From the NCBI RefSeq assembly GCF_007559025.1, contig NZ_CP041765.1, forward strand, positions 306,679-370,678: a stretch of 64,000 nucleotides of DNA, in the 5' to 3' direction. Under the pieces are notes generated by a model. The model searched no databases, was not told the origin of the DNA, and saw nothing but the letters and a program-made list of their open reading frames with translations. The position numbers and the translations under genes are program-made. Positions 1-48,576 of the stretch are shown piece after piece (positions within the stretch are counted from its first letter, which is position 1; every line of letters starts with the position of its first letter). This DNA comes from Tomitella fengzijianii. Its GTDB lineage: Bacteria; Actinomycetota; Actinomycetes; Mycobacteriales; Mycobacteriaceae.

Positions 1-215
1 GTATCGGGTGGTGATGCCGCGTTGGGCCCGTACCGTTCTGGCACGTCGCGCCAGGGGCAGCCGACGCGGACACGGTGGCGTACCCCGTCGACCAGTTGGC
101 GCACCGGCTACACACGCGGTCGGCCCACACGCGCCGGTGCAGGTAGGAGCGGTTCGAGTACCTTCCACTGCGCGTCGTTCAGATCGTGACGGGCGGCAGC
201 ATTTACCGTGGACAT
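1..215 (-). pseudogene. IS5-type transposase N-terminal remnant
   Basis: Read on the minus strand from the ATG at 215-213, the translation has the DDE-transposase N-terminal (DUF4096-type) pattern: DAQWKVLEPLLP, then GRPR, QLVDGVRHRVR and PWRDVPERYGP, the classic start of IS5/IS4-like transposases. An in-frame TAG lies at 110-108, and after the PERYGP motif the sequence no longer follows the family. It is therefore interrupted, and may also be cut or rearranged at the window edge. No terminal inverted repeat could be assigned with confidence. It marks this end of the window as a place where mobile DNA has inserted. Confidence 0.8.
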
Positions 216-803: not shown

Positions 804-1997
804 ATGCGTACATTCGTCCTCGGCGGTGACGGGTTCTGCGGTTGGCCCACGGCACTGCACCTGTCGGCGCATGGCCATGACGTGACCATCGTCGACAGCC
901 TCGTCCGGCGACGCATCGACGAGGAGCTGGGCGTGCAGTCGCTCACCCCCATCCGTCCGCTCGCGGAGCGCGTCGAGGCGTGGCGCGAGGCGACGGGCCT
1001 GCGGATCGGGGTCGTCACCTGCGATCTCGCCATCGAACCCGACGCACTGGTGCGGCTGCTCACGGAGGGACGGCCGGACGCCGTCGTGCATCTCGCGGAG
1101 CAGCGCTCGGCGCCGCTGTCGATGAAGTCCCCGCACTACAAGCGCTTCACGGTGGATAACAACGTCCGGGCCACGCACAGTCTGCTGGCGGCGCTGGTGC
1201 AGACGGGCTCCGACGCACACCTGGTGCACCTGGGGTCGATGGGCGTCTACGGGTATGAGACGGTGCCGCTGGACCTGCCCGAGGGGTACCTCACCGTCAG
1301 CTACCCCGATGACAACGGCGTCGAACGCGCCCGGGAGATTCTTTATCCGACCCAGCCCGGGAGCGTCTACCACCTGACCAAGTCCCTCGATCAGCTGATG
1401 TTCCAGTTCTACGCCGCCAACGACGGGGTGCGGATCACCGACCTGCACCAGGGCATCGTGTGGGGCACCCAGACGGACGAGACAGCGCTCGACCATCGCC
1501 TGATCAATCGCTTTGACTACGACGGCGACTACGGCACGGTGCTGAACCGCTTCCTGGTGGAGGCGGCGGTGGGCCACCCGCTCACGGTGCACGGGTCGGG
1601 CGGGCAGACCCGCGCGTTCATCAACATCCGCGACAGCGTGCGGTGCATCCGCCTGGCGGTCGAGTCGGGCGACGAGGTCGCCGGCCGGGTGCGCGTGATG
1701 AACCAGGTCACCGAGACGCACTGTGTGTCCGATCTGGCGCGGATCGTGGCCGGGGCTTCCGGTGGCGTTGTCAGCAATGTCGCCAACCCGCGGCGCGAGG
1801 CCGACGCGAACACGCTCGGCGTGCGCAACGACCACCTGCTGGGTCTGGGCCTCGAGCCCACGCTGCTCGAGTCGGACCTGCTGGTCGAGTCGATCGAGGT
1901 CGCGCAGAAGTACGCCGACCGGGTCGACCCGCACCGGATCCCCTGCACGTCGTACTGGAACCGTGAGCGTGAGGCGATGGCGGGGGTGCCGTCGTGA
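804..1997 (+). CDS. UDP-sulfoquinovose synthase-like NAD-dependent epimerase/dehydratase
   Basis: A 397-residue extended SDR that follows the plant/cyanobacterial SQD1 family end to end: GGDGFCGW dinucleotide-binding loop at residues 7-14, VDSLVRR, EQRSAP (99-104), YHLTK catalytic Tyr189/Lys193, TDLHQGIVWG, and AAVGHPLTV...GGQTR. SQD1 enzymes add sulfite to a UDP-glucose-derived 4-keto intermediate, making UDP-sulfoquinovose. The SQD1 active-site Thr (LGTMG) is Ser145 here (LGSMG). The start at 804 is chosen over an in-frame codon at 711 because it has a purine-rich ribosome site and begins exactly at the Rossmann strand. It overlaps the next gene by GTGA, so the three genes 804-5751 are translationally coupled. 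Making UDP-sulfoquinovose itself is an inference; a different UDP-hexose product is possible. Confidence 0.85.
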   Translation: MRTFVLGGDGFCGWPTALHLSAHGHDVTIVDSLVRRRIDEELGVQSLTPIRPLAERVEAWREATGLRIGVVTCDLAIEPDALVRLLTEGRPDAVVHLAEQRSAPLSMKSPHYKRFTVDNNVRATHSLLAALVQTGSDAHLVHLGSMGVYGYETVPLDLPEGYLTVSYPDDNGVERAREILYPTQPGSVYHLTKSLDQLMFQFYAANDGVRITDLHQGIVWGTQTDETALDHRLINRFDYDGDYGTVLNRFLVEAAVGHPLTVHGSGGQTRAFINIRDSVRCIRLAVESGDEVAGRVRVMNQVTETHCVSDLARIVAGASGGVVSNVANPRREADANTLGVRNDHLLGLGLEPTLLESDLLVESIEVAQKYADRVDPHRIPCTSYWNREREAMAGVPS

Positions 1998-3913
1998 CAG
2001 AGGGCCCCGACGACCCAGAGCCCTCGGGCGACCCTGATCATTCGGACAGGCCACCGGAAGAGCAGGAGCCGCGCTACCACGCCGGCGAGAACGGCCGGCG
2101 GGTGCCGCGCTCGGCATGGCTGGTGCTGGGGGTCGCCGTGGTCGTGCTGGCGGCGTTCCTCATCGCCCGGCCGTACTGGTTCGGTGGCGACACGGACTCC
2201 CTGCACGTGCCCGCCGACCGCCACTACAGCAAGTCCCTCGCGGCGATGGGGTATCCTGACGGCATCCGGCTGAGCGACGACACGCCGACGGCCACGTTCA
2301 CGGCGACGCTGCCGGTCGACGCCGGGCCGGGGAAGACGCGGGTGCAGCTGCGCGGGTCGACCCAGGTGGCCGAGAACAGCACCGTGTTCCTCACCATCGC
2401 CGTCGACGGCACGCCGTTGCTGCGGCGCTCGCTCCCCACCGGCGTCAACGAACTGCGCGAGACGATCTCCGTCCCGGCGGGCGCCGTCGAAGACGGCCAG
2501 GTCCGCGTGCGGGCGTCGGTGGACGGAACGCTGCACGACGGCATCTGCATGCCCGACCATTCGGCCGGCATGCTGGTCACGCTGACTCCCGACACGCTCG
2601 TCGAGTCGGCCCTGGCACGGCCGGTGCGCACGGTTCGTGATGCCGTCGCCGTGTGGGACGAGGACATGACGATCGTGCTGGCCGACCACGGCGACGAGTG
2701 GCGCACCGCGGCCATGCAGCTCGGCGTCGCGCTGACGCAGCAGGGCCACGCCGTCTCCTACGCCGGCACGGTGCCCCGGTCCGGCGTGGGCGACGCGGTG
2801 ATCGTCGGGCCGCCGGGCGCCCTCGGCAGGCTCGGCTGGAATGGTCCCGGCGCGGGGGACGACGCGATCGTCGTCGGCACCGTCGGCGATACGGCCGTCG
2901 TCGCGATGGTCGCACCGCAGGCCGGGGCCATCGCGCGCCTGGTGACCACGCCCGCGCAAGCCTCCGCCGACGCGGTATCGAGCGACCCTCGCGCGGTGAC
3001 GAGCACGGGCATCGCGGACTTGGCCAACGGCGAGGTGGGGCTGGCGTCCCTCGGCGCCGACACGACCGAACAGCAGATCGCGATGGTCCGCCGGTGGCGG
3101 GTCTCCTATTCCACTGCCGACCTGCCGGGTGGGCGGGCACCCGACGCCCTTCGGGTCGCGATCCAGCTGCCCGCGTCACCGCCCGACCTGACCTGGGTGA
3201 TGAACATCCAGCTCAACGGCAAGTTCATCGACAGCCGCACGCTCGAGCACACCGCCGATCCGGTCTCCATCGACCTGCCGGTGGCGGAGCAGCGCCTGTC
3301 CAACAGCCTCGTGATCGAAGTGCAGCGCGACCGCGACCTCGCCGGGTGCGATGTGCGCGTCACCGGCTACCCGATCCAGCTCCTCGACACGTCGTCGCTC
3401 GTCATGGGCGATTCCGCCGCGGCCGGCTTAGCGGGCGTCCCGGCCGCGCTGGCATCCGGATTCGCCGTGTACGTGCCCGACACCGAACCCGAGCAGACCG
3501 ACGCGCTGCTCACCGCGGCCGTACCCACACTCGCGGCGTTCACGCCGGCGATGTACACGCCCGACGTCCACTGGGGCGCCGCCCCTGCCCCGGACCGGCC
3601 GTTCGTGCTGCTCGGTGCCGCGCGGGACGTCGGCACCCTCGCCCATGTGCAGGATGGGCGCCTGGTCGCGGGGGCCGGGGAGGCCGCGCTCGACGTGACA
3701 TCGTTCGCCGCGGGCGTGCTCACGCAGTGCGCCACCGGTCCCGCCGGCGCTGCGGGGCTCGCCGTCCAGACGGTCGGCGAACCCGGCAGGTTGCCGCTGC
3801 CCGATTTCGGCCGGGAATGCGCCCAGGTGGCCGTCACTGGTGGGGCCTTCGCCCTCGACCGATCCGGCGCGGTGGTCGGCACCGGCACACCCCGGACGGC
3901 GGCACCGCGGTGA
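1994..3913 (+). CDS. BcsB-like exported polysaccharide synthase subunit
   Basis: 639 residues, GTG start overlapping the previous stop (GTGA). An acidic cytoplasmic tail (1-37) is followed by one membrane segment (~41-58), then a large extracellular beta-rich part resembling the cellulose synthase regulatory subunit BcsB, with two repeated carbohydrate-binding-like segments (LPVDAGPGKTRVQLRGS and LPASPPDLTWVMNIQLNGK). In cellulose synthases BcsB sits outside the membrane and guides the growing chain from BcsA. Here the membrane anchor is at the N terminus; no C-terminal BcsB helix is evident. The next gene is a BcsA-like glycosyltransferase, which fits a synthase complex. The match is by overall pattern, so the exact polymer is unknown. 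Confidence 0.65.
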   Translation: MTEGPDDPEPSGDPDHSDRPPEEQEPRYHAGENGRRVPRSAWLVLGVAVVVLAAFLIARPYWFGGDTDSLHVPADRHYSKSLAAMGYPDGIRLSDDTPTATFTATLPVDAGPGKTRVQLRGSTQVAENSTVFLTIAVDGTPLLRRSLPTGVNELRETISVPAGAVEDGQVRVRASVDGTLHDGICMPDHSAGMLVTLTPDTLVESALARPVRTVRDAVAVWDEDMTIVLADHGDEWRTAAMQLGVALTQQGHAVSYAGTVPRSGVGDAVIVGPPGALGRLGWNGPGAGDDAIVVGTVGDTAVVAMVAPQAGAIARLVTTPAQASADAVSSDPRAVTSTGIADLANGEVGLASLGADTTEQQIAMVRRWRVSYSTADLPGGRAPDALRVAIQLPASPPDLTWVMNIQLNGKFIDSRTLEHTADPVSIDLPVAEQRLSNSLVIEVQRDRDLAGCDVRVTGYPIQLLDTSSLVMGDSAAAGLAGVPAALASGFAVYVPDTEPEQTDALLTAAVPTLAAFTPAMYTPDVHWGAAPAPDRPFVLLGAARDVGTLAHVQDGRLVAGAGEAALDVTSFAAGVLTQCATGPAGAAGLAVQTVGEPGRLPLPDFGRECAQVAVTGGAFALDRSGAVVGTGTPRTAAPR

Positions 3914-5751
3914 CCAGTGCACCGCATATCGCCCGGCACCGCGCAGACGCCGCCGTCCCCGTGCCGGTCGACCAGCACTTCCGCTCGGTCGACAGTGCGC
4001 CCGCCGGCATCTCGGTGGACCGTCCGGCCAGCGCGTCCAACGGCTTCCTGCTGGCGTTCGCGGGACTCTCCCTGCTCGCGCTGCTGGTCACCATGATGAC
4101 TGCCCACAACGGCATCACGGGGCTCTACCCACTGGTCCTGCTCCCGGACAGCCGCGGCAACGGCGGACTGCCCACCCGGGTCTTCGTCGTCGTGTTCTTC
4201 GTGACCTACGCCGCCTACGCCTACACCAACATCTGGCGGCGGATCGCGCTGGGCGCTGCGATGCTGGCCAGGTTCGCGGCGGTGTGCGTGGCGATCGACC
4301 TGATCGGCTGGAGCCTGGCCAGGGCCGACGTGGCGAGCCTGCCGGTGGGGTTCCAGGCCGCGTCGTCGGCCGTCATCGCGCTCGCGGTCTTCCCGTACAC
4401 CATCCTGCGCCAGGCCGCGTTGCCCGACCGCTCCGGCAGGGCGCTCCGACCGCGCGTGCCGGCCCGGGCATACGTCGTGCTGGCGGTGAGCATCCTCATC
4501 GCCGCGGTGGTCGCGATCGCGGTGGCGCGCGTGTTCTTCGAGACGGTGTTCGATCTCAAGCGGATCGCCCTGCTCGGCGGACTGGGTCCGGGCATCTTCC
4601 TGGTGCAGCAGGTGTTCGCCGTACTGACGGCCTCGGCGGGATGGGTGCGCCTGCGGCGCTCGCGCCGGGCGGTGTTCGCTCCACCGCTCGCCGTGCTGGT
4701 CCCCGCGCACAACGAGGCGCACGGCATCGCGGCGACCATCTGCGCAGTGGACCGTGCCGCCCTCAGCTACCCCGGCCTGATCCACCTCTGCGTCGTGGAC
4801 AACGCGTCCGCCGACGCGACCACCGCCGTCGCGGAGCGGGCCATCATCAGTTGCACCAACATCACCGGCGAGGTGCTCCAGTGCCCTACGCCGGGCAAGG
4901 CGTACGCGCTGAACATGGGGCTCGGGCATCTGCAGCAGGATTTCGTGGTGCGCATCGACGCGGACACGGTGATCGGCGAGGGCTGCCTGAAGACGGCGAT
5001 GAGCCACTTCGCCGACCCGCGCGTCGGATCGGTCGGAGGCATGCCGTTGCCCGCCGAGGAGAAGACGTGGATCGACAAAGTCCGGCTGGTCGAGGTGTAC
5101 CTGCGGCACGGCTTGTACCAGTACTCGTTGATGGGCTACCAGGGGGTGCTGGGTGTGCCCGGCATGTTCGCGATCTATCGGCGCAGCGTGGTGCTGGAGG
5201 TGGGCGGCATCGTAGAGGGCATGAACGGCGAAGACACCGACATCTGCCTGCGGCTCGACAGCGCCGGCTACCACACGGTGGCCGACCCGCAGGCCGTCTA
5301 CTACAGCGAGACGCCGGCATCGTTCGCGCACCTGCGCGAACAGCGCACCCGCTGGTTCCGCAGCATCTACCACATCGTCGCGCACAACCGCGGCACGCTC
5401 CTGCATCCCCGGTCGATGACGGGCATGTTCGTCATGCCGTTCCAGCTGGGCAACGCCGCCCGGCGGGCGATGCACGTGCCGATCCTCATCTTCGCCGGGC
5501 TCGCTGTGATCGGATTCCAGTCGGTGTATTCCGGTCTGCGCTGGCAGCCCGAGGTCGCCACCGTCCTAGGCATGCCCCTGCTGATGACGGTGTTCGCGTG
5601 CCTGCTGTACCGCCCCAGCGCGCTGCGGTACGTGCCCGCCTACGTGTGGTTCCGGCTGGTGCGCAATTACTTCACGCTGGGCTCCGTGCTGAGCCTGCGG
5701 TTCCCTCCGCTGCACCCCGGGCGACCTCGCGCTCTCACCCCCCACGGGTGA
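3910..5751 (+). CDS. membrane family-2 glycosyltransferase, BcsA/hyaluronan-synthase type
   Basis: 613 residues, GTG start in a GTGA overlap with the BcsB-like gene. Several hydrophobic helices in residues ~45-260, then a GT2 catalytic domain: VPAHNE, Asp297 (VVDNAS), DAD at 350-352, Glu441-Asp442 (GEDTDICLRL) and QRTRW at 478-482, the full D/DxD/ED/QxxRW set of processive beta-glycosyltransferases. More membrane helices follow (~510-590). No PilZ domain is present, unlike c-di-GMP-activated BcsA. With the two upstream genes it likely polymerises and exports a UDP-sugar-derived polymer across the membrane. Confidence 0.85.
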   Translation: MTSAPHIARHRADAAVPVPVDQHFRSVDSAPAGISVDRPASASNGFLLAFAGLSLLALLVTMMTAHNGITGLYPLVLLPDSRGNGGLPTRVFVVVFFVTYAAYAYTNIWRRIALGAAMLARFAAVCVAIDLIGWSLARADVASLPVGFQAASSAVIALAVFPYTILRQAALPDRSGRALRPRVPARAYVVLAVSILIAAVVAIAVARVFFETVFDLKRIALLGGLGPGIFLVQQVFAVLTASAGWVRLRRSRRAVFAPPLAVLVPAHNEAHGIAATICAVDRAALSYPGLIHLCVVDNASADATTAVAERAIISCTNITGEVLQCPTPGKAYALNMGLGHLQQDFVVRIDADTVIGEGCLKTAMSHFADPRVGSVGGMPLPAEEKTWIDKVRLVEVYLRHGLYQYSLMGYQGVLGVPGMFAIYRRSVVLEVGGIVEGMNGEDTDICLRLDSAGYHTVADPQAVYYSETPASFAHLREQRTRWFRSIYHIVAHNRGTLLHPRSMTGMFVMPFQLGNAARRAMHVPILIFAGLAVIGFQSVYSGLRWQPEVATVLGMPLLMTVFACLLYRPSALRYVPAYVWFRLVRNYFTLGSVLSLRFPPLHPGRPRALTPHG

Positions 5752-39961: not shown

Positions 39962-40188
39962 TCACGTCGCTCTCCCTATCGCTCTGCCCGGTATAGATGC
40001 CTGCCGCTACCCGCGTCCGGCGGCCCGTCGTCAACCCGCCGCGGATTCCGAAGAGCCGATTCGCTGAAAGCCGATGAAGGCAGCAGGTACGCTAATCAGG
40101 AATTCATCCGATCGGGCAGGTCGAACCAGCTGATCGGACCGTATTCTGGCCTGTAGCGGCCGAAGCATAGCCCAATCGTCACTTATCT

Positions 40189-40212
40189 GTGCGAACAGTG
40201 AGGTGTTCGCAC
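40189..40212. promoter_or_regulatory. palindromic operator upstream of the YhgE/Pip pair
   Basis: GTGCGAAC (40189-40196) and GTTCGCAC (40205-40212) are a perfect 8-bp inverted repeat with an 8-base spacer, ending 22 bases before the start codon. TTATCT (40183-40188) just upstream could be the -10, which would put the operator over the transcription start. This suggests repression by a TetR-like dimer encoded elsewhere. Confidence 0.7.
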
Positions 40213-40234
40213 GAATATCAGCGAGGGAATGTCC

Positions 40235-42811
40235 ATGCGCAACGCCTCCAAGATGCTACGCCGTGACCTCACGCGCATACGTAGGGCGCCGAAGTCGTGG
40301 GCGATCATCATCGGATTGCTGGTGCTTCCTGCTTTGTACGCGTGGGTGAATATCGTGGCGTTCTGGAACCCCTACGGGAATGCAGAGCACATCAAGGTCG
40401 CCGTCGTCAACGAGGACCAAGGGGCCAGTACCGAGCTCACCGGTGAGGTGAACGTCGGCGATCAGGTGGTCGCCCAACTGAAGACCAACCATCAACTCGG
40501 TTGGGAGTTCATGAATCACGACGATGCGATGGACGCGGTCCGCTCGGGCGCGAGCTACGCCGCCATCATCATGCCGCCGGACTTCAGCAAGGATCTCCTG
40601 ACCATCATCACTGGTGACTTCGTGCAGCCGCAGCTCGAGTACTACACCAACGAGAAGGCGAACGCGATCGCCCCCAAGATCACCGAGGTCGGCGCATCGA
40701 CGCTGGACACGCAGATCAACTCGAAGTTCGTCTCAACGGTCGCGCAGACGATCGCCACGCAGGCCCGACAGGCGGGCATCGACACAGGGCAATGGTTGAC
40801 CGGCTCGCGCAGCAACACATTGACCGCGTTGGACCAGGCGCTCACCACCGTTGAGGCCGCACGCGAGAGCCTGGCCGAGTTGCATGACGCGCTCGGCCCC
40901 GGTGCCGCAGCCGTCTCCGATGCCAAGGCCGCACTTGAGCGGGTGGACGCCGGCATCGTTGATGTGACCCACACGGTCTCGGATGCACAGGGACTGGTCA
41001 ACGAGGTGCAGGGGAACCTGTTCGACTTCTCGGAGACCTTGACGGGAGCGTACGTCTCCGGTGCGCCGAACCTCACCGGTGCCACCACGCGCCTGAATCG
41101 GAGCATCCAGCAGGTCGCCGGAGGTGCCGACGCGGCGCGCGCCGCGCTGACCACGGCGAAGCGGGACGTGCAGGGAGTGATAGACGCCAACCAGGGGCTG
41201 CTGGCCACGATGCGCCCGTTGGTCGGCGCACTCCCCGATGCGGTACCGATCAAGGCCCGGATTCAGCAAGTGATCGACGAGGTCTCCGCGCAGACGGCCC
41301 GTGATCAACAGCTCCTGGCCACGCTCGGCGACGCCACCGCCGACGTGTCGACGGTGTCCGATCAGACTGCCGCGGCTTCAGGGGCGATGAGAGCCGTCGA
41401 GCAATCGTCCTCCGCTCTGCACGGCGTACTCGCCGGAACGTTCCCGAGCCTCAACCAGTCCATGTCCTCGTTGTCCACCAGTGTCGGCGCCTTCTCCTCG
41501 GCGCTCGATTCGCAACGTGTGCTTGTGCGCGAGGCCGTGGGGATGCTCTCCGATCTCGAATCACTGCTGGGCAAGACGGATACGGCCGTGACCTCGCTCG
41601 ACGGCAATCTGCAGGATGTGCAGTCGGATCTGACCACGTTGCAGACCGACTTGGACGCGATCACCGCTGCGGACATTTGGAACCAGGTGAACGCGCTGAC
41701 CTCGCTCGACCCCAAGTCGATCGCGGGGTTCATGGCGGGACCGGTGCAGGTCCATGAGAACGACTTGTTCCCGGTGCCGGCGTACGGATCGTCGATGGCA
41801 CCGTTGTTCACCAATCTGTCTCTGTGGATCGCAGGGTTCGTGTTGATGGTGCTGTTCAAGCTGGAGGCTGATGCCGAGGGCATCGAAGGCCTGACGGTGA
41901 AGCAGGGGTACTTCGGTCGTTGGTTGCTGTTCGCGGTGATGAGCGTCATCCAGGGCCTGCTGGTGAGCATAGGAAACGTATTGATCGGTGTGCAGACGGT
42001 GAATCCGGTCGTCTACGTGCTGACATGTGTCTTTATCGGGCTCGTCTACATGTCGATCATCTATGCTCTGTCGGTCTCCTTCGGCTACATCGGGAAGGGG
42101 ATCGCCGTATTGCTGGTGATCATGCAGATTCCCGGCGCCTCGGGCATCTACCCGATTGAGATGATGCCGGACTTCTTCAGGGCGCTTTTCCCCTTCTTCC
42201 CGTTCACCTACGGTATCGATGCGATGCGCGAGACCATCGGCGGCTTCTACGGCTTCCATTATCTCCGGTACATGGCCGTTCTCGCCCTGTTTGCCGTACT
42301 GTCCTTCGTCCTCGGGGTCTTCCTCCGTCAACGGCTCGGAAACTTCGCGCGACTGTTCAACAGGAGATTGGCGGACACCGGTCTGTTCCTGAGCGAGGAA
42401 GTGCAGACATTGGGATCGCGACGGCGTCTCACGCAACTCGTGCGCGCACTGACCAATCGTGACAAGTTCCGTGCAGACAACGATAGGCATCGGAGTTGGT
42501 TCGACATGAACCATAAACTCCTGCAGCGTGCGGCGTTGATCATCGGCCTGATAGGCACCGTGGTGTTGTTGGCGATCGGGACTGCATTCCCGGACGCCAA
42601 GGCCACCGTTCTCGGCCTGTGGGGGGTGCTGTGCCTCCTCGTGATGGCCGGGATCATCCTGATCGAATACATCAGCCAGAACATCATCTACGGAACGGAG
42701 GTGGCCGATCTGCCCGACGACGAGCTGAAGCGCAAGCTGGCCGCCGAAGAGGTTGCGATCCGTTCCGATGCACGCCTTGACCAGCTGGATCTGCGGGGGC
42801 AGAACGCATGA
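40235..42811 (+). CDS. YhgE/Pip family membrane protein (first of pair)
   Basis: 858 residues. Helix near the N terminus (WAIIIGLLVLPALYAWVNIV), the YhgE block VAVVNEDQGAS, AIIMPPDFSKDL and YYTNEKANAIAPKI, a ~350-residue extracytoplasmic coiled-coil region rich in Ala/Thr/Ser, then five to six helices of ABC-2-like type (FTNLSLWIAGFVLMVLFKLE ... VFIGLVYMSIIYALSVSFGY, FPFTYGIDAMRETIGGFYG). The family includes phage-receptor Pip and type VII-linked EsaA-like proteins and may export small molecules or toxins. GAGGGA is 6 bases before the ATG at 40235, so this start is preferred to 40229. Overlaps the next gene by ATGA. Composition is less G+C-rich than neighbours. Confidence 0.88.
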   Translation: MRNASKMLRRDLTRIRRAPKSWAIIIGLLVLPALYAWVNIVAFWNPYGNAEHIKVAVVNEDQGASTELTGEVNVGDQVVAQLKTNHQLGWEFMNHDDAMDAVRSGASYAAIIMPPDFSKDLLTIITGDFVQPQLEYYTNEKANAIAPKITEVGASTLDTQINSKFVSTVAQTIATQARQAGIDTGQWLTGSRSNTLTALDQALTTVEAARESLAELHDALGPGAAAVSDAKAALERVDAGIVDVTHTVSDAQGLVNEVQGNLFDFSETLTGAYVSGAPNLTGATTRLNRSIQQVAGGADAARAALTTAKRDVQGVIDANQGLLATMRPLVGALPDAVPIKARIQQVIDEVSAQTARDQQLLATLGDATADVSTVSDQTAAASGAMRAVEQSSSALHGVLAGTFPSLNQSMSSLSTSVGAFSSALDSQRVLVREAVGMLSDLESLLGKTDTAVTSLDGNLQDVQSDLTTLQTDLDAITAADIWNQVNALTSLDPKSIAGFMAGPVQVHENDLFPVPAYGSSMAPLFTNLSLWIAGFVLMVLFKLEADAEGIEGLTVKQGYFGRWLLFAVMSVIQGLLVSIGNVLIGVQTVNPVVYVLTCVFIGLVYMSIIYALSVSFGYIGKGIAVLLVIMQIPGASGIYPIEMMPDFFRALFPFFPFTYGIDAMRETIGGFYGFHYLRYMAVLALFAVLSFVLGVFLRQRLGNFARLFNRRLADTGLFLSEEVQTLGSRRRLTQLVRALTNRDKFRADNDRHRSWFDMNHKLLQRAALIIGLIGTVVLLAIGTAFPDAKATVLGLWGVLCLLVMAGIILIEYISQNIIYGTEVADLPDDELKRKLAAEEVAIRSDARLDQLDLRGQNA

Positions 42812-45003
42812 ACAACATTGTCACCCTGATCCGCCAGGACTTCAGGCAGGCCACACGTTCTGTGATTCCAGTGATTGTCCTGGTCGGGGTCATACTGATC
42901 CCTTCGTTCTTCGCGTGGTTCAACGTGCTCTCGAGTTGGAAACCATTCGATAACGTGAGCAACCTCAAAATCGCTGTTGCCAGCGCGGATGAGGGTTTTG
43001 AGAGCAGCCTTTTCCCTATGCGACTCAATGTGGGAGAGCAAGTGGTATCGCAGCTACGGGCCAACAGCGATATCGACTGGCAGTTCGTCTCCAAGAGTGA
43101 GGCGATTGACGGCACAAAATCGGAGAAATACTACGCGGCGATCGTGCTGCCCCCGGATTTCAGTAAGAAGATGCTCACTTTTCTTTCGCCCGGCGCGTCT
43201 CCGGTGGATATCGACCTCTATGTGAACGAGAAGAAGAACGCGCTCTCGTCCCTGATCACCGGAGAGGCTGCGACAGAGGTCTCGACGCAGATCAATACGA
43301 GTTTCACGCAGACGCTCGACGAGGTCGGCTTGGCGCTGGTGTCGTCCCTGGCGACCCATCTCGAGGACTCGGACGCGCAGGAGACCTTGGACAGGCTCAA
43401 GTCGGCGGTCGGCAGGATCTCGGTGCAGTTGAACTCCGCGGCCGGCACCGCGGGCATGTTCGCGGGTCTGCTCTCGTCTGCCGACTCTCTTCTGTCGAGC
43501 GCCGGCTCTCTCTCCTCGTCGGCATCGCAAGCGGTCCAGGACACCACCGGCGCGATCGGCCAGGGTGTGGAGTCCGTGGGCTCGGTGCAGGGCGTGCTGA
43601 CGTCGGCCTCTGAGCTGTTGTCCAAAGTCTTCACGGCGAATGCCGACAGCTATGACGCGCTTCGCGCCGAGATCAATCGGACCTTCGGTCAGGCTCCCGC
43701 GGCACAACAGGCTGGAGACGGGCTCGCGCAGGCGTCGGGGATGGTGGATGGGCAGGTCGCGGCATATACGCAACTACGTGATCAGTTGAGAGCCCAGGAA
43801 TCGACGCCCGGACTCGACCCCGTGGCCCGGGGGGCGGTGGGTCTGCTGGCGGACAGTGTCGACGCCGTCATCGACCGTCAGGTGGCACTCAGGCGGGGGC
43901 TCGATGCGGCGTCGTCGCCCGCGTCGCAGGGAATCGTGGATCGTGAGGCGACGCGCAAGGCGATACTCCAGGATGTCGATGGCGCGCAGTCCGCGCTCAC
44001 CGCCGCCCGTGATCAGTACACGAACAGCCTGCAACCGCAGCTCGCCCGTCTCGCAGCCGACTTGCAAGCCGTGCAGGGCAGTTTCGCCGGTATCGGTCGG
44101 GATCTGCGCGCGGCGGATCAATCGCTGGCTGCCGGCGCGGGCTCGCTGAGCGCGAGCCTGTCGGACGGCGAGACTGCGGCTCGGCTGCTGGCGAGCGGCC
44201 TCGGCAAGTCCGCTGATGCCTTCGCCCAGCTCGACGAAGCCCTCCAACAGGCGTCGAAATCGGGTGATCTGAGTGAAGTCTCCCGGATCATCGGCTCCAG
44301 TCCGGCGAAGTTCGCCGCGGAGCTCGCCTCACCGGTCAGCCTGGATACGATTCCAGTGTTCAAGGTCGACAATTTCGGCTCCCAGATGGCGCCGCTGTAC
44401 TCGGTGCTGGGTCTCTGGGTGGGGGCGCTGCTGCTGTCGGTGCTCATTCGCGCCGAGGTCTCTCGGGATGCTCTTCCTCCGCTGAAGCGTCCGCTTCGGC
44501 CGTGGCAGGAGTACTTCGGTCACTATGTGATATTCGGCGGGCTCGCATTCGTGCAGAGCACGCTGCTCTTCGTCGGTCTCATCGGCTTTGTCGGAGTGCG
44601 GCCGGTCCACCCGCTCCTGTTGATTCTCGCGGGCTGGGTCATGGCGTTCGTCTTCTCACTCATCACCTATACGCTCGTGCTGGCGTTCGGGGAGGCGGGT
44701 AAGGCGATAGCAGTCCTCCTGCTGGTCGTACAGATCTCCGCGGGCGGGGGTGCGTATCCGTTGGACGTCTTGCCGCAGTGGTTCCAGAACATCAGTCCCT
44801 TCGTCCCCGTCTCCCACGCGACGAGCGCTGTGCGCTCGGCCATCGCCGGGATCTATCAAGGCGACTACTGGAAGGACCTGGGCTGGCTCCTGCTGTTCAT
44901 CGTGCCGACCCTGTTCATCGGTCTGGTGTTGCGCCTGGCGGTGAGGAAGTTCAACGACGACTTGAACAAGTCGCTCGAGGGGACCAAGCTGATGAGCGTG
45001 TGA
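42808..45003 (+). CDS. YhgE/Pip family membrane protein (second of pair)
   Basis: 731 residues, ATGA overlap with its paralogue. Same plan: N-terminal helix (VIPVIVLVGVILIPSFFAWF), YAAIVLPPDFSKKMLTFLSP, YVNEKKNALSSLITGEAATE, long Ser/Ala-rich coiled middle (~190-500), then C-terminal helices (LYSVLGLWVGALLLSVLIRA; YVIFGGLAFVQSTLLFVGLI; FVPVSHATSAVRSAIAGIYQ). The two proteins probably form a heteromeric membrane complex. DNA at 42901-43020 is only 52% G+C by hand count, pointing to horizontal acquisition. Confidence 0.88.
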   Translation: MNNIVTLIRQDFRQATRSVIPVIVLVGVILIPSFFAWFNVLSSWKPFDNVSNLKIAVASADEGFESSLFPMRLNVGEQVVSQLRANSDIDWQFVSKSEAIDGTKSEKYYAAIVLPPDFSKKMLTFLSPGASPVDIDLYVNEKKNALSSLITGEAATEVSTQINTSFTQTLDEVGLALVSSLATHLEDSDAQETLDRLKSAVGRISVQLNSAAGTAGMFAGLLSSADSLLSSAGSLSSSASQAVQDTTGAIGQGVESVGSVQGVLTSASELLSKVFTANADSYDALRAEINRTFGQAPAAQQAGDGLAQASGMVDGQVAAYTQLRDQLRAQESTPGLDPVARGAVGLLADSVDAVIDRQVALRRGLDAASSPASQGIVDREATRKAILQDVDGAQSALTAARDQYTNSLQPQLARLAADLQAVQGSFAGIGRDLRAADQSLAAGAGSLSASLSDGETAARLLASGLGKSADAFAQLDEALQQASKSGDLSEVSRIIGSSPAKFAAELASPVSLDTIPVFKVDNFGSQMAPLYSVLGLWVGALLLSVLIRAEVSRDALPPLKRPLRPWQEYFGHYVIFGGLAFVQSTLLFVGLIGFVGVRPVHPLLLILAGWVMAFVFSLITYTLVLAFGEAGKAIAVLLLVVQISAGGGAYPLDVLPQWFQNISPFVPVSHATSAVRSAIAGIYQGDYWKDLGWLLLFIVPTLFIGLVLRLAVRKFNDDLNKSLEGTKLMSV

Positions 45004-45768
45004 TCGCTCCCCCGAAGGGGTCTTGCCCCGGGGTGCGTACCATCCAGTCACGTGCGCGGAATCGGAGAATACGATCGCATTTCCGGCCGGCACGAATTGT
45101 GCGGAATGCAGGTCGATGCGCGGGATGTGCAGGAGAAGTCCGTTCGTGCGAATCAGCATCCATTGAATAGGATGCGCTGCACGCGAGCCGAATAGCGGCC
45201 GCGGCCGCCTGCGATTCACGTTCGCTGAGGTCTTGATCGCCACGGCCATGCTCGGTCTCAGTGGCTGCGGGCCTGCTCTTGCCGGCCGCGCATGACCCGC
45301 AGATCAGCCGGAATCGCCGGACTTGCTCGATTTTCCGCATGTGCCGTCCGTCGTGCTGCTAGGTTCGCATCATGGTTGAATTCGGCGGCGCGCAACCGGC
45401 GGCACGCGCCGCGCAGTGTGTGCGAGGTGGGCCGCGGTGAAAGGGTCGTGGGGGCATTCTTTCGGCTCCGTCGATCTCGACGTCGCCGCGGGCCGGGTAA
45501 TGACCAAAACGACACCGTGCGGCTGCGCCGGAAATGCGCTCGTGATGACGCATTGCGGGCGGAAGCATGATTATCACGGCGAGCTGTCGACGCCCGGTTT
45601 CGACAGTCGGCCTCGCAATGCGTTCTCGCGCTCGCCGATCGCCCGGATGGACGCTGTGGACGAATTCGTCGACCTCCCGCCGGTGCCGCCGACCACCCCG
45701 CACCGCCGATCGCCCCGCACCGCCTGCCGCAGACTCCCATGCTCACGACCACGGAGGTATTACCGACC
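45004..45768. other. non-coding stretch before the glutamate decarboxylase gene
   Basis: No convincing long gene on either strand. It contains CCCC-GAA-GGGG just after the second Pip gene (45010-45020), a weak hairpin, and one candidate leaderless micro-ORF (45372-45440). The remainder probably holds gad regulatory sequence; GGAGG lies 11 bases before ATG 45769. Confidence 0.4.
45372..45440 (+). CDS. possible leaderless micro-ORF, 22 residues
   Basis: TAGGTT (45360-45365), 6 bases, then ATG 45372: the same geometry as confirmed-gene leaderless starts in this window. The 22-codon frame (MVEFGGAQPAARAAQCVR then GGPR) stops at TGA 45438-45440. It could be a regulatory leader of the gad unit or mark the start of a longer transcript. 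No homology recognised. Confidence 0.3.
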   Translation: MVEFGGAQPAARAAQCVRGGPR

Positions 45769-47160
45769 ATGACGCTTCCACGCTCCGCCGGCCCCAACCG
45801 CACCGGCACCATCGCCCCCGCGTACACGGGGCGCCTGAGCACCGACCCTGTTCCGCGCCTGCGGATGCCGGACTCGGAGATGGAACCCGGCGCCGCCTAC
45901 CGGTTCATCCACGACGAGCTCATGCTCGACGGCAGCTCGCGGCTCAACCTGGCCACCTTCGTCAGCACGTGGATGGACCCCGAAGCCGACAAGCTGATGG
46001 CCGAATCGTTCGACAAGAACATGATCGACAAGGACGAGTACCCGTCGACCGCAGCGATCGAGGCCCGGTCCGTCGCCATGGTGGCCGACCTCTTCCACGC
46101 CCCGGGCTTGTCGGAGACGGACCCGGCCTCCGCCACCGGCGTGAGCACCATCGGCTCGTCGGAGGCGGTCATGCTGGCGGGTCTGGCGATGAAGTGGCGC
46201 TGGCGCCAGCGCCGGCAGGCCGCCGGCCAGGACGCCACCAAGCCGAACCTCGTCCTCGGCTCCAACGTGCAAGTGGTGTGGGAGAAGTTCTGCCGCTACT
46301 TCGACGTGGAGGCCAAGTACCTTCCGATGGAGCCGGGCCGCTACGTCATCACCCCCGAGCAGGTGCGGGAGGCGGTGGACGAGAACACCATCGGCGTCTG
46401 CGCGATCCTCGGCACCACCTACACCGGCGAGTTCGAGCCCATCGCGGCCATCTCCGAGGTGCTCGACAAGCTGGCGGCGGACGGCGGGCCGGACGTGCCC
46501 ATGCACGTCGACGGCGCGTCCGGCGGCTTCGTCGCCCCGTTCCTGCACCCGGACCTGGAATGGGACTTCCGCAATCCGCGCGTGGTCTCGATCAACGTCA
46601 GCGGGCACAAGTACGGGCTGACCTATCCCGGCATCGGCTTCGTGGTGTGGCGCAGCGCCGACTACCTGCCGGAGGACCTCGTGTTCCGCGTCAATTACCT
46701 GGGCGGCGACATGCCCACGTTCACGCTGAACTTCTCGCGCCCCGGCAACCAGGTGGTGGGCCAGTACTACAACTTCATCCGCCTCGGCCGCGAGGGATAC
46801 CAGGCCATCATGGAGACGCTGCGGGACACCGCCGTGTGGATCGGCAAGCAGGTCGAGCAGATCGACGGGCTGCGCCTGGTCAGCGACGGGACGGCCATCC
46901 CGGTACTGGCGTTCGAACGCGACTCGACCGACGGGTACTCCGTCTTCGACGTCTCGCACGAGCTGCGCTCGCGGGGGTGGCAGGTGCCGGCGTACACGAT
47001 GCCGGAGGGCGCCGAGGACGTCGCGGTGCTGCGCGTGGTGGTCCGCGAGGGCTTCAGCAGGGACCTCGCGGCGCGGATGGTGGACGACCTGAAGACTGTG
47101 TGCAAGCGGCTCGAGGGGGGAGTGGAGATCAAGTCGGCGGCCCGGCACTTCGCCCACTGA
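45769..47160 (+). CDS. gadB: glutamate decarboxylase
   Basis: 463 residues, close to the ~466 of E. coli GadB. APAYTGRL start block, LNLATFVSTWMDPEADKLM, IGSSEAVMLAGLAMKWRW, HVDGASGGFVAPF, PLP lysine K281 in NVSGHKYGL, and RPGNQVVGQYYNFIRLGREG. Converts glutamate to GABA and CO2, consuming a cytosolic proton. ATG 45769 chosen over 45739 because a GGAGG precedes it and the alternative adds ten non-conserved residues. Nine bases separate it from the exporter gene, so they are one operon. Confidence 0.92.
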   Translation: MTLPRSAGPNRTGTIAPAYTGRLSTDPVPRLRMPDSEMEPGAAYRFIHDELMLDGSSRLNLATFVSTWMDPEADKLMAESFDKNMIDKDEYPSTAAIEARSVAMVADLFHAPGLSETDPASATGVSTIGSSEAVMLAGLAMKWRWRQRRQAAGQDATKPNLVLGSNVQVVWEKFCRYFDVEAKYLPMEPGRYVITPEQVREAVDENTIGVCAILGTTYTGEFEPIAAISEVLDKLAADGGPDVPMHVDGASGGFVAPFLHPDLEWDFRNPRVVSINVSGHKYGLTYPGIGFVVWRSADYLPEDLVFRVNYLGGDMPTFTLNFSRPGNQVVGQYYNFIRLGREGYQAIMETLRDTAVWIGKQVEQIDGLRLVSDGTAIPVLAFERDSTDGYSVFDVSHELRSRGWQVPAYTMPEGAEDVAVLRVVVREGFSRDLAARMVDDLKTVCKRLEGGVEIKSAARHFAH

Positions 47161-47169
47161 CCCAAGGCG

Positions 47170-48576
47170 GTGCCTGAACCCTCCCGGCCGAACGGGACGC
47201 ATGACCGCGACTACGTCCACCGGGTTCTCGACGCGGCGTTGCGCATCGGCTCGCTGCTGCTGTCGAGCAATTCGGGCACCGCCGACGTCGCGGCGACGAT
47301 GTCCGCCATCACCGGGACATACGGGCTGCAGAACACCCAACTGGACGTCACCGCGACGACGATCATCCTGTCGGTGCCGCGCGGCGTCGAGGGCGCCCCT
47401 CTGACCGTCATGTGGCACGTCAAGGGGCGTTCCCTCGACTACACCCGGCTGCACACCGTCCTGGACTTCGCGCAGCAGGTGGCCGACGAACGACCGGACC
47501 TGGACTGGGTGCACCGACGGATCGACGAGCTGGACGCCGCGCCGCCCCCCTACAACAGCTGGGTGTCCACAGTGGCGTTCGGGGCGATGGCGGCGAGCTT
47601 CTCGGTGCTGCTCGGGGCAGGGGCGGTCGTCGTGGCGATCGCCGCGGTGACCACGTCCGTGATCGACAGGATCGGCAGGATTCTGGCCGACCGTGGCCTT
47701 CCGATACTGTTCCGGCAGGCCGTGGCCGGGCTCGTCGCGACGGGGGTGACGCTGTCGCTCGACGCCGTCGGCAGGCTCCCCGAGGGGGCGAACCCGTCGC
47801 TGGTGGTGGCGGCGAACATCGTCGCGCTGATGTCGGGCATGGCGATCGTGTCGTCCGTGCAGGACTCGATCACCGGCTACTACCTGACATCCGTCGGCCG
47901 GATCATGGAGATCCTGCTGTCGATGGTCGGGATCTTCGTCGGGGTCGGGGCGGCGCTGCGGATCGGCGACGCGTTCCACGTCGACGCCTCGGTCAGCCCC
48001 GAGTCCGTCGCGGGCTGGCTGAGCGTGCCGGTCATGGTGGCGGCGGGCGCGGTGGGCGCGGCGGCGGCCGCGGTGTCCAGCTACGCCCCGGCGCGCGCGG
48101 CGGGCGCGGCGGGCGCCGCCGGGTCGCTGGGCGCGCTGATCTATTTCGGGATGATGCACCTGCACGCCGGAAATGTGGCCAGCTCGTTCGTCGCCGCCAC
48201 GGCCATCGGCCTGGCGGGCGCGGTGGTGGCGCACCGGTTCTCGGTGCCGCCGCTGGTCATCGTGATGTCGGGAATCGTCCCGCTGGTGCCCGGGGTGACC
48301 ACCTACCGCGGGTTCGTCACGCTCGTCGAGGGCCACTCGGCGCAGGGGGTAGGCACGCTCGTGGTCGCGGCCGGCACCGCGGTGGCGCTGGCCGCGGGCG
48401 TGGTCTTCGGGCCGTTGCTGGCGCCGGTTACGCGCCGGCAGATCCGGCAGATGCGGACGCTCGGAGCCGAACTCGGTCCGCGGTTCGACAGCCGGTGGTC
48501 GCGGACGCCGACGCTGGCGGGCATCGATCTGCGCCGGCGGCACTTCACGCACCACCATCGGCGTCGGCCCCGGTGA
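47170..48576 (+). CDS. ThrE-type threonine/serine exporter family protein
   Basis: 468 residues, GTG start 9 bases after gad. Cytosolic N-terminal domain (~15-125: RVLDAALRIGSLLLSSNSGT, TAVD-like VTATTIILSVPRG), then ten hydrophobic helices covering both ThrE halves (WVSTVAFGAMAASFSVLLGA; LFRQAVAGLVATGVTL; GIVPLVPGVTTYRGFVTLVE), i.e. the YjjP and YjjB parts fused. Known members export Thr/Ser by proton antiport. Here the coupling to glutamate decarboxylase suggests GABA, glutamate or another amino acid as cargo, which is inference. Confidence 0.88.
   Translation: MPEPSRPNGTHDRDYVHRVLDAALRIGSLLLSSNSGTADVAATMSAITGTYGLQNTQLDVTATTIILSVPRGVEGAPLTVMWHVKGRSLDYTRLHTVLDFAQQVADERPDLDWVHRRIDELDAAPPPYNSWVSTVAFGAMAASFSVLLGAGAVVVAIAAVTTSVIDRIGRILADRGLPILFRQAVAGLVATGVTLSLDAVGRLPEGANPSLVVAANIVALMSGMAIVSSVQDSITGYYLTSVGRIMEILLSMVGIFVGVGAALRIGDAFHVDASVSPESVAGWLSVPVMVAAGAVGAAAAAVSSYAPARAAGAAGAAGSLGALIYFGMMHLHAGNVASSFVAATAIGLAGAVVAHRFSVPPLVIVMSGIVPLVPGVTTYRGFVTLVEGHSAQGVGTLVVAAGTAVALAAGVVFGPLLAPVTRRQIRQMRTLGAELGPRFDSRWSRTPTLAGIDLRRRHFTHHHRRRPR

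Follow-up and report, generated by a model that had tools for sequence, protein, structure and literature searches.

An SQD1-like enzyme encoded with a BcsB-like protein and a membrane GT2 in Tomitella fengzijianii: a candidate operon for a sulfonated exopolysaccharide

Introduction

What is made by a bacterial operon that couples an enzyme resembling uridine diphosphate (UDP)-sulfoquinovose synthase with the parts of a polysaccharide-synthesizing machine? The question is raised by a three-gene locus of the actinobacterium Tomitella fengzijianii (genome of 4.01 Mb), which lies near the beginning of a stretch of 64,000 nucleotides, hereafter the window, starting at base 306679 of contig 1 (NZ_CP041765.1). 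Sulfoquinovose is known from sulfolipids and from archaeal N-glycans, according to parts of PMC12890257 and PMC8987622, and annotation-based lists of synthases already include actinobacterial genes, from Mycobacterium vanbaalenii, Propionibacterium freudenreichii and Saccharopolyspora erythraea (PMC4388408, section 5).

Based on our data, the chances are about even that the locus is a synthase-dependent exopolysaccharide operon with sulfoquinovose, or a close relative of it, in its product. Taken separately, a synthase-dependent polymer of some kind is highly probable, and a sulfonated donor sugar is reasonably probable.

Results

The three genes lie on the same strand, and the start codons of genes 2 and 3 are embedded in the end of the preceding gene:

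804 to 1997, plus strand: gene 1, SQD1-like nucleotide-sugar enzyme dependent on nicotinamide adenine dinucleotide (V-type lineage, see below), 397 amino acids, ATG start
1236 to 1250, plus strand: active-site loop S-M-G-V-Y, codons 145-149, with Val148 at 1245-1247, the position of the Glu in the MGEYG of SQD1 and Agl3
1368 to 1382, plus strand: catalytic YxxxK, here Y-H-L-T-K, codons 189-193
1994 to 1997, plus strand: GTGA overlap, gene 2 start inside the gene 1 end
1994 to 3913, plus strand: gene 2, BcsB-like membrane-anchored periplasmic protein, 639 amino acids, GTG start
2111 to 2167, plus strand: N-terminal membrane helix, residues 40-58 by hydropathy, in agreement with a helix at 40-57 of the predicted structure; no C-terminal helix
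2204 to 3868, plus strand: BcsB fold, residues 71-625, by fold search of the predicted structure
3910 to 3913, plus strand: GTGA overlap, gene 3 start inside the gene 2 end
3910 to 5751, plus strand: gene 3, multi-pass membrane GT2 polysaccharide-synthase-like protein without PilZ, 613 amino acids, GTG start
4681 to 5361, plus strand: GT2 catalytic domain, residues 258-484

The initial annotation had given the three genes these coordinates, starts and motifs and had noted GTGA at both joints, all of it correctly. Its interpretation, a surface polymer containing sulfoquinovose or a related sugar, stands in part; it had missed Val148, a second copy of the operon in the same genome, and the alkyl sulfatase, SulP and DUF389 genes that lie around most other copies.

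Gene 1 resembles SQD1, SqdB and Agl3 in its length and sequence, which are those of an extended short-chain dehydrogenase/reductase (SDR), and it contains the motifs GGDGFCGW, EQRSAP, YHLTK and AVGHPLTV. Arabidopsis SQD1 is its nearest solved structure (three distinct chains, 318 bits, E ~1e-93), and UDP-glucuronate decarboxylase, the enzyme type that comes next, reaches 40 bits, in agreement with the suggestion that gene 1 is kin to SQD1 and not to the epimerases. In passages of PMC8987622, [ST]MG plus YxxxK is given as the fingerprint of UDP-sulfoquinovose synthases; gene 1 has it as S145-M146-G147 and Y189-x3-K193, and in L118, a divergent operon copy, TTG stands there instead, with Thr for Met146. 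Alanine mutants of Agl3 at His95, Arg101, Met145, Tyr182 and Lys186 were inactive (PMC4388408, section 6). All five residues are kept in gene 1 as His96, Arg101, Met146, Tyr189 and Lys193, the positions of Agl3 having been matched by motif from that paper, as neither Agl3 nor cyanobacterial SqdB is among the rows of our alignment.

Ser145, in place of Thr, had been put forward as the possible sign of a changed reaction, a suggestion that our data do not support. The same position is Thr in 6 of 11 operon rows, the equivalent T144A mutant of Agl3 stayed fully or strongly active (PMC4388408, section 6); Ser145 is therefore rejected as the key change, and Val148, for which the lineage is fixed, is the feature to study. 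The same section describes Glu147 of Agl3 as important, not essential, with 12.4 percent activity left in E147A, and the acid and base of sulfoquinovose synthesis are listed as unknown in a portion of PMC8987622.

The predicted structure of gene 2 matches the BcsB fold over residues 71-625 (best PDB match E 6.6e-24), so that the resemblance to BcsB noted from the letters alone holds. Single-sequence searches with gene 2 returned no BcsB, and its alignment profile found nothing credible among PDB sequences. At E<=1, the Pfam BcsB model PF03170 matched just five of nine aligned gene 2 homologues (best 2.3e-5); the window protein was not among the five and had no Pfam BcsB match of its own. Thus, the weak PF03170 matches came from homologues only and the clear answer from the fold search alone. 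BcsB carries a C-terminal membrane anchor. Gene 2 differs from it in having its anchor at the N-terminus, as well as in its low identity (10-15 percent); hydropathy revealed no C-terminal membrane helix, and a weaker stretch at residues 476-494 lies inside the fold.

Gene 3 carries the D, DxD, ED and QxxRW set of processive-type GT2 enzymes (with the motifs RIDADT, GEDTD and QRTRW) and no PilZ, as had been read from the sequence at first. D350, D352, E441, D442, Q478, R481 and W482 are invariant in all nine aligned gene 3 proteins, the first D (Asp of VVDNAS) is Asn in four of them, and none of the nine matched PilZ at E<=0.01. Hydropathy indicated six hydrophobic stretches before the glycosyltransferase domain and two after it. 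Gene 3 is thus like BcsA as a membrane GT2 with this motif set, but it is without the C-terminal PilZ domain and scores only 38 bits with the NCBIfam CelA model (cut-off 699), and a cellulose synthase proper was rejected on these two grounds. With PgaC/IcaA, hyaluronan synthase (HAS) and other processive GT2 enzymes it shares the motif set, predicted helices on both sides of the catalytic domain and the lack of PilZ. The NCBIfam scores, all far below their cut-offs, were highest for PgaC/IcaA (100.5 bits, cut-off 422) and included MftF (92) and NodC (58); gene 3 also departs from PgaC/IcaA in its six leading hydrophobic stretches and in its BcsB-like and SQD1-like partners. Of the cellulose-synthase-like export pair first proposed, the BcsB fold and the GT2 motifs remain, whereas gene 3 is more PgaC-like. 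In short, gene 1 is like a UDP-sulfoquinovose synthase, and genes 2 and 3 are like a cellulose synthase, without being filed as such.

A protein search of genome contigs with gene 3 found eight loci, in Speluncibacter, three Nocardia, Rhodococcus erythropolis, Williamsia and two Gordonia (membership of the order Mycobacteriales was checked for two of these names), and the three-gene order is identical in all eight. With a gene 2 profile we found 25 copies in 23 of the 401 genomes of the window's family, distributed over 9 of 30 genera. Gene 3 adjoins every one of these copies and gene 1 adjoins 24. The lone copy without gene 1 (L108/L132) is the second copy in genome G684, whose complete operon lies at another place (L119/L134). 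Since the locus occurs twice in the window's genome and the three-gene linkage recurs in 24 of 25 cases, it is not a chance arrangement. The linkage suspected earlier is therefore conserved, but within an operon found in few genomes of the family. Across the order, 347 sampled genomes yielded gene 3 in 3 cases (E<=1e-60) and homologues of gene 1 in 43 (E<=1e-40); in the window's genus, gene 3 was found in one of five genomes, twice in that one. The operon is an accessory trait, sparse and tightly linked.

The second copy in the window's genome (G000:C1:3566604-3571574; L013 5572-10575) shares with the first 73 percent identity in the SQD1-like, 51 percent in the BcsB-like and 66 percent in the GT2 protein, values so low that a recent duplication was rejected as the origin of the pair. 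On the upstream side of this copy lies an alkyl sulfatase (PF14863 match at 3572030), and on its downstream side lie AI-2E, DUF6325, SHOCT and DUF2254 genes. Two further copies deserve mention. In G684, the BcsB-like and GT2 pair without an SQD1-like gene (L132 8949-10988 and 7087-8952) lies beside genes that we take to be Mce/YrbE-like, and a divergent operon copy in G599 (L142) has its BcsB-like gene in two pieces in different frames, either a sequencing error or a real split.

An alkyl sulfatase was found within 10 kb of 16 of the 25 operon copies, in eight of the nine genera, with 0.16 expected at random; DUF389 was found near 11 (0.13 expected) and SulP near 12 (0.43 expected), these expectations assuming that matches are placed at random and that the genomes are independent and of rounded size, and the SulP test resting on 33 typed rows picked by eye to include places near operons, with per-genome totals that count fragments. 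PF14863 had 43 matches in all across the 23 operon-bearing genomes, and one sulfatase homologue (L005:4877-6772) contains Lactamase_B, Alkyl_sulf_dimr and Alkyl_sulf_C domains. By tblastn, the sulfatase was detected in 16, SulP in 13 and DUF389 in 13 of 25 fetched operon loci, a set made up of the survey copies minus the window's own plus L011. None of the three was detected in 18 fetched SQD1-like loci outside the operon, which come from 18 of the 40 non-operon genomes in the order-wide gene 1 sample and are somewhat shorter stretches (12.6-17.1 kb, against 16-20.8 kb for operon loci). All these counts rest on profile or tblastn matches; gene calling missed the GT2 of the window, where it took an antisense frame, and the sulfatase of G645.

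The sulfatase is upstream and in line with the operon in L013, L127, L133, L134 and L137, divergent in L122 and L135, and downstream in L123, L125, L130 and L131. This variety of position and orientation favours a repeated association over a single frozen arrangement. A family with a match to SfLAP (sulfolipid-1-addressing protein) in the one member scanned for it (L011:5098-5748) occurs in 8 of 26 islands.

Gene 1 was aligned in 68 rows comprising the window enzyme, Arabidopsis SQD1 and 66 homologues, with identical rows kept once and with the repeats L001-L004 and L014-L018, as well as order and phylum survey matches without an assigned locus, left out. Two groups emerged. All 22 rows of the V-type group read [ST]MGVYG and have at least 57 percent identity to the window enzyme; all 46 remaining rows, SQD1 included, read TMGEYG (E-type). 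The split between them received a Shimodaira-Hasegawa-like approximate likelihood ratio test (SH-aLRT) value of 100; the dividing branch measures 1.46 changes per column, and one clade (support 98) holds all 11 operon enzymes of the tree. When a group-specific column is taken as one with the same residue in at least 90 percent of V rows and in no more than one E row, 28 columns separate the groups, that is, Val148 and 27 others, two of the 28 being insertions. By this alignment, the SQD1-like operon enzymes are a lineage apart from the proven synthases. A tree rooted on distant SDRs is weakly supported (V clade 75/86, E clade 85/55), its outgroup branches are very long, and it favours neither a loss of the Glu in the V-type nor a gain in the E-type lineage.

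Both types also occur outside the operon. In family f12, of the same order, V-type locus L050 shares with E-type locus L061 an SDR at 65, a GT2 at 49 and a GtrA at 30 percent identity, and with E-type locus L063 an SDR at 62 and a GtrA at 31 percent. These labels come from domain scans of L048 (GT2 and SDR) and L050 (GtrA); the GT2 part of L048 is nearest to polyprenyl- or dolichyl-phosphate sugar transferases and its SDR is of the GalE/dehydratase sort. GT4 transferases adjoin V-type genes in L054, L056, L057 and L058 and an E-type gene in L060, the one of L054 being 45 percent identical to that of L058 and 33 percent to that of L060. SQD2, the plant sulfolipid transferase, is itself a GT4, and no NCBIfam SQD2 model gave a match. 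The presence of V- and E-type genes in homologous clusters of another family indirectly favours the same product for both, and the transferases that the V-type lineage seems to provide with a donor sugar are of three kinds at least.

Thus, SQD1-like genes occur in two further transferase settings, one with GT4 and the other with GtrA plus a polyprenyl-phosphate-type GT2 (L054, L056 and L057 of genus g7; L048-L053 and L059-L065, mostly of family f12, L060 being of f7), which suggests that there may be further sulfonated glycoconjugates in Actinomycetota. With the NCBIfam UDP-sulfoquinovose synthase model NF041015, the five top scores among 246 sampled genomes of the phylum belong to a deep SQD1-like branch (L066-L070) whose motifs read GVDGYLGW and ECPSAP.

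Discussion

In the mechanism that we propose, gene 1 would oxidise UDP-glucose, or a close UDP-hexose, dehydrate it at C6 and then add sulfite, yielding UDP-sulfoquinovose or a close 6-sulfonated relative. The membrane GT2, judging from its motifs and its partner, may polymerise the sulfonated sugar, alone or with another UDP-sugar, and move the chain through a membrane channel of its own. The fold of the BcsB-like protein suggests that it would receive the chain at the outer surface of the plasma membrane, with its N-terminal helix as the anchor. What results would be an anionic, sulfonated polymer at the surface of mycolic-acid bacteria, and the alkyl sulfatase and SulP permease often linked to the operon could supply sulfate to the sulfite pool.

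Several observations weigh against this proposal. Gene 1 scores 300 bits with NF041015, below the cut-off of 575 (next model at 39), and gene 1 of the second copy scores 336. The cut-off is strict: it was passed by none of the 246 phylum genomes, though 59 of them matched at E<=1e-40. Two control genomes matched, Synechococcus elongatus and Sulfolobus acidocaldarius, and just one of them passed (the output is silent on which), hence we rejected the cut-off as decisive proof against a synthase. In the family survey, all 24 operon copies of the enzyme have Val in place of the Glu of MGEYG. Nine copies, the window's among them, lack a sulfatase within 10 kb, and the enrichment of neighbours ignores the relatedness of the genomes. 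The AlphaFold model of gene 3 is poor (predicted local distance difference test score of 50.7), with no channel visible. Finally, a pure sulfur view of the islands has to accommodate the DUF6325, SHOCT, DUF1269, DUF2254 and LuxR/MalT-type genes present in some of them, and the sulfatase-SulP pairs of G227 and G894, which lie apart from the operon.

These last two points, together with AI-2E genes in some islands, speak for another view of the sulfatase, SulP and DUF389 genes, as a stress or detergent-response island and not a sulfur supply; the linkage would then be uninformative on the sugar. We consider this possible, though doubtful: of the three neighbour families that were counted, the sulfatase occurs most often, and it recurs in varied orientation in nearly all the genera.

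A second alternative concerns the enzyme. The V-type protein may stop at a 4-keto, 5,6-ene or 4-epimerised UDP-sugar, and the operon would then make an ordinary, non-sulfonated exopolysaccharide. The length of the V/E branch, the lineage-specific columns and the unsure rooting, by which the Glu may never have existed in the V-type lineage, would all fit, as would the letters VYG, which resemble the generic SDR pattern of GalE and RmlB. However, the window enzyme keeps [ST]MG and not the acid/base pairs of 4,6-dehydratases, Arg101 and Met146 are retained, homologous clusters are common to E- and V-type enzymes, and the sulfatase neighbourhood goes with the operon form, being absent from all 18 other loci. 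On balance, a non-sulfonating enzyme appears unlikely.

Alternatively, the GT2 may be non-processive and transfer a single sulfonated sugar to a lipid, a polyprenol or a glycan, with the BcsB-like protein as an acceptor-binding partner. The GT4 and polyprenyl-phosphate-type GT2 neighbours of related enzymes elsewhere in the order are in line with such a role, and so is the similarity of gene 3 to MftF, which is not known to be a polysaccharide exporter. Nevertheless, QxxRW and the multi-pass topology, PgaC/IcaA as the best-scoring model and a full-length BcsB fold, whose known examples serve polymer translocation, make this quite improbable. A sulfonated homopolymer machine, with a V-type active site re-tooled to add sulfite to a UDP-hexose other than UDP-glucose (UDP-N-acetylglucosamine would suit a PgaC-like synthase) and fed by sulfate from alkyl sulfatase, by which environmental alkyl sulfates would become the cell's own sulfonated capsule, is a very remote prospect.

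The kinds of components are known and their combination appears to be undescribed. Among the open-access literature matches listed, there was no description of the three-gene combination, of the Val148 lineage or of the sulfatase island, and no paper was found in the open-access literature that brings sulfoquinovose together with Nocardia. If a bacterial polymerising machine for sulfoquinovose does exist here, it would be a source of organosulfonate not known before and would add a new anionic polymer to the envelope of mycolic-acid bacteria. In addition, the Val148 lineage offers a natural test of the role of the Glu in sulfoquinovose synthesis. As the operon is short and present in Rhodococcus erythropolis, a workable soil bacterium, the question is directly testable.

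Other Features of the Window

Just upstream of the operon, the minus strand (window 3-215) holds the start of a reading frame (DLNDAQWKVLEPLLP) that is interrupted by a stop. We presume it to be transposase-like, and it is perhaps the remnant of an insertion sequence. On the plus strand, a short frame at 186-485 has by eye a SHOCT-like tail and resembles the SHOCT protein encoded downstream of the second operon copy.

Farther along, two large membrane proteins encoded side by side, each with a long middle part (40229-45003), which we take to be YhgE-like, lie in and beside the stretch of lowest guanine-plus-cytosine content of the window (0.618 at 40001-44000). At 45739-48576 there is what is presumably a glutamate-decarboxylase-like gene adjoining a ThrE-like exporter. 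Between 6252 and 15625 there is a run of genes presumed to encode flavin adenine dinucleotide-dependent dehydrogenases, short-chain dehydrogenases and small SnoaL-like proteins, which, if these labels are right, resembles a cluster for steroid or terpenoid breakdown.

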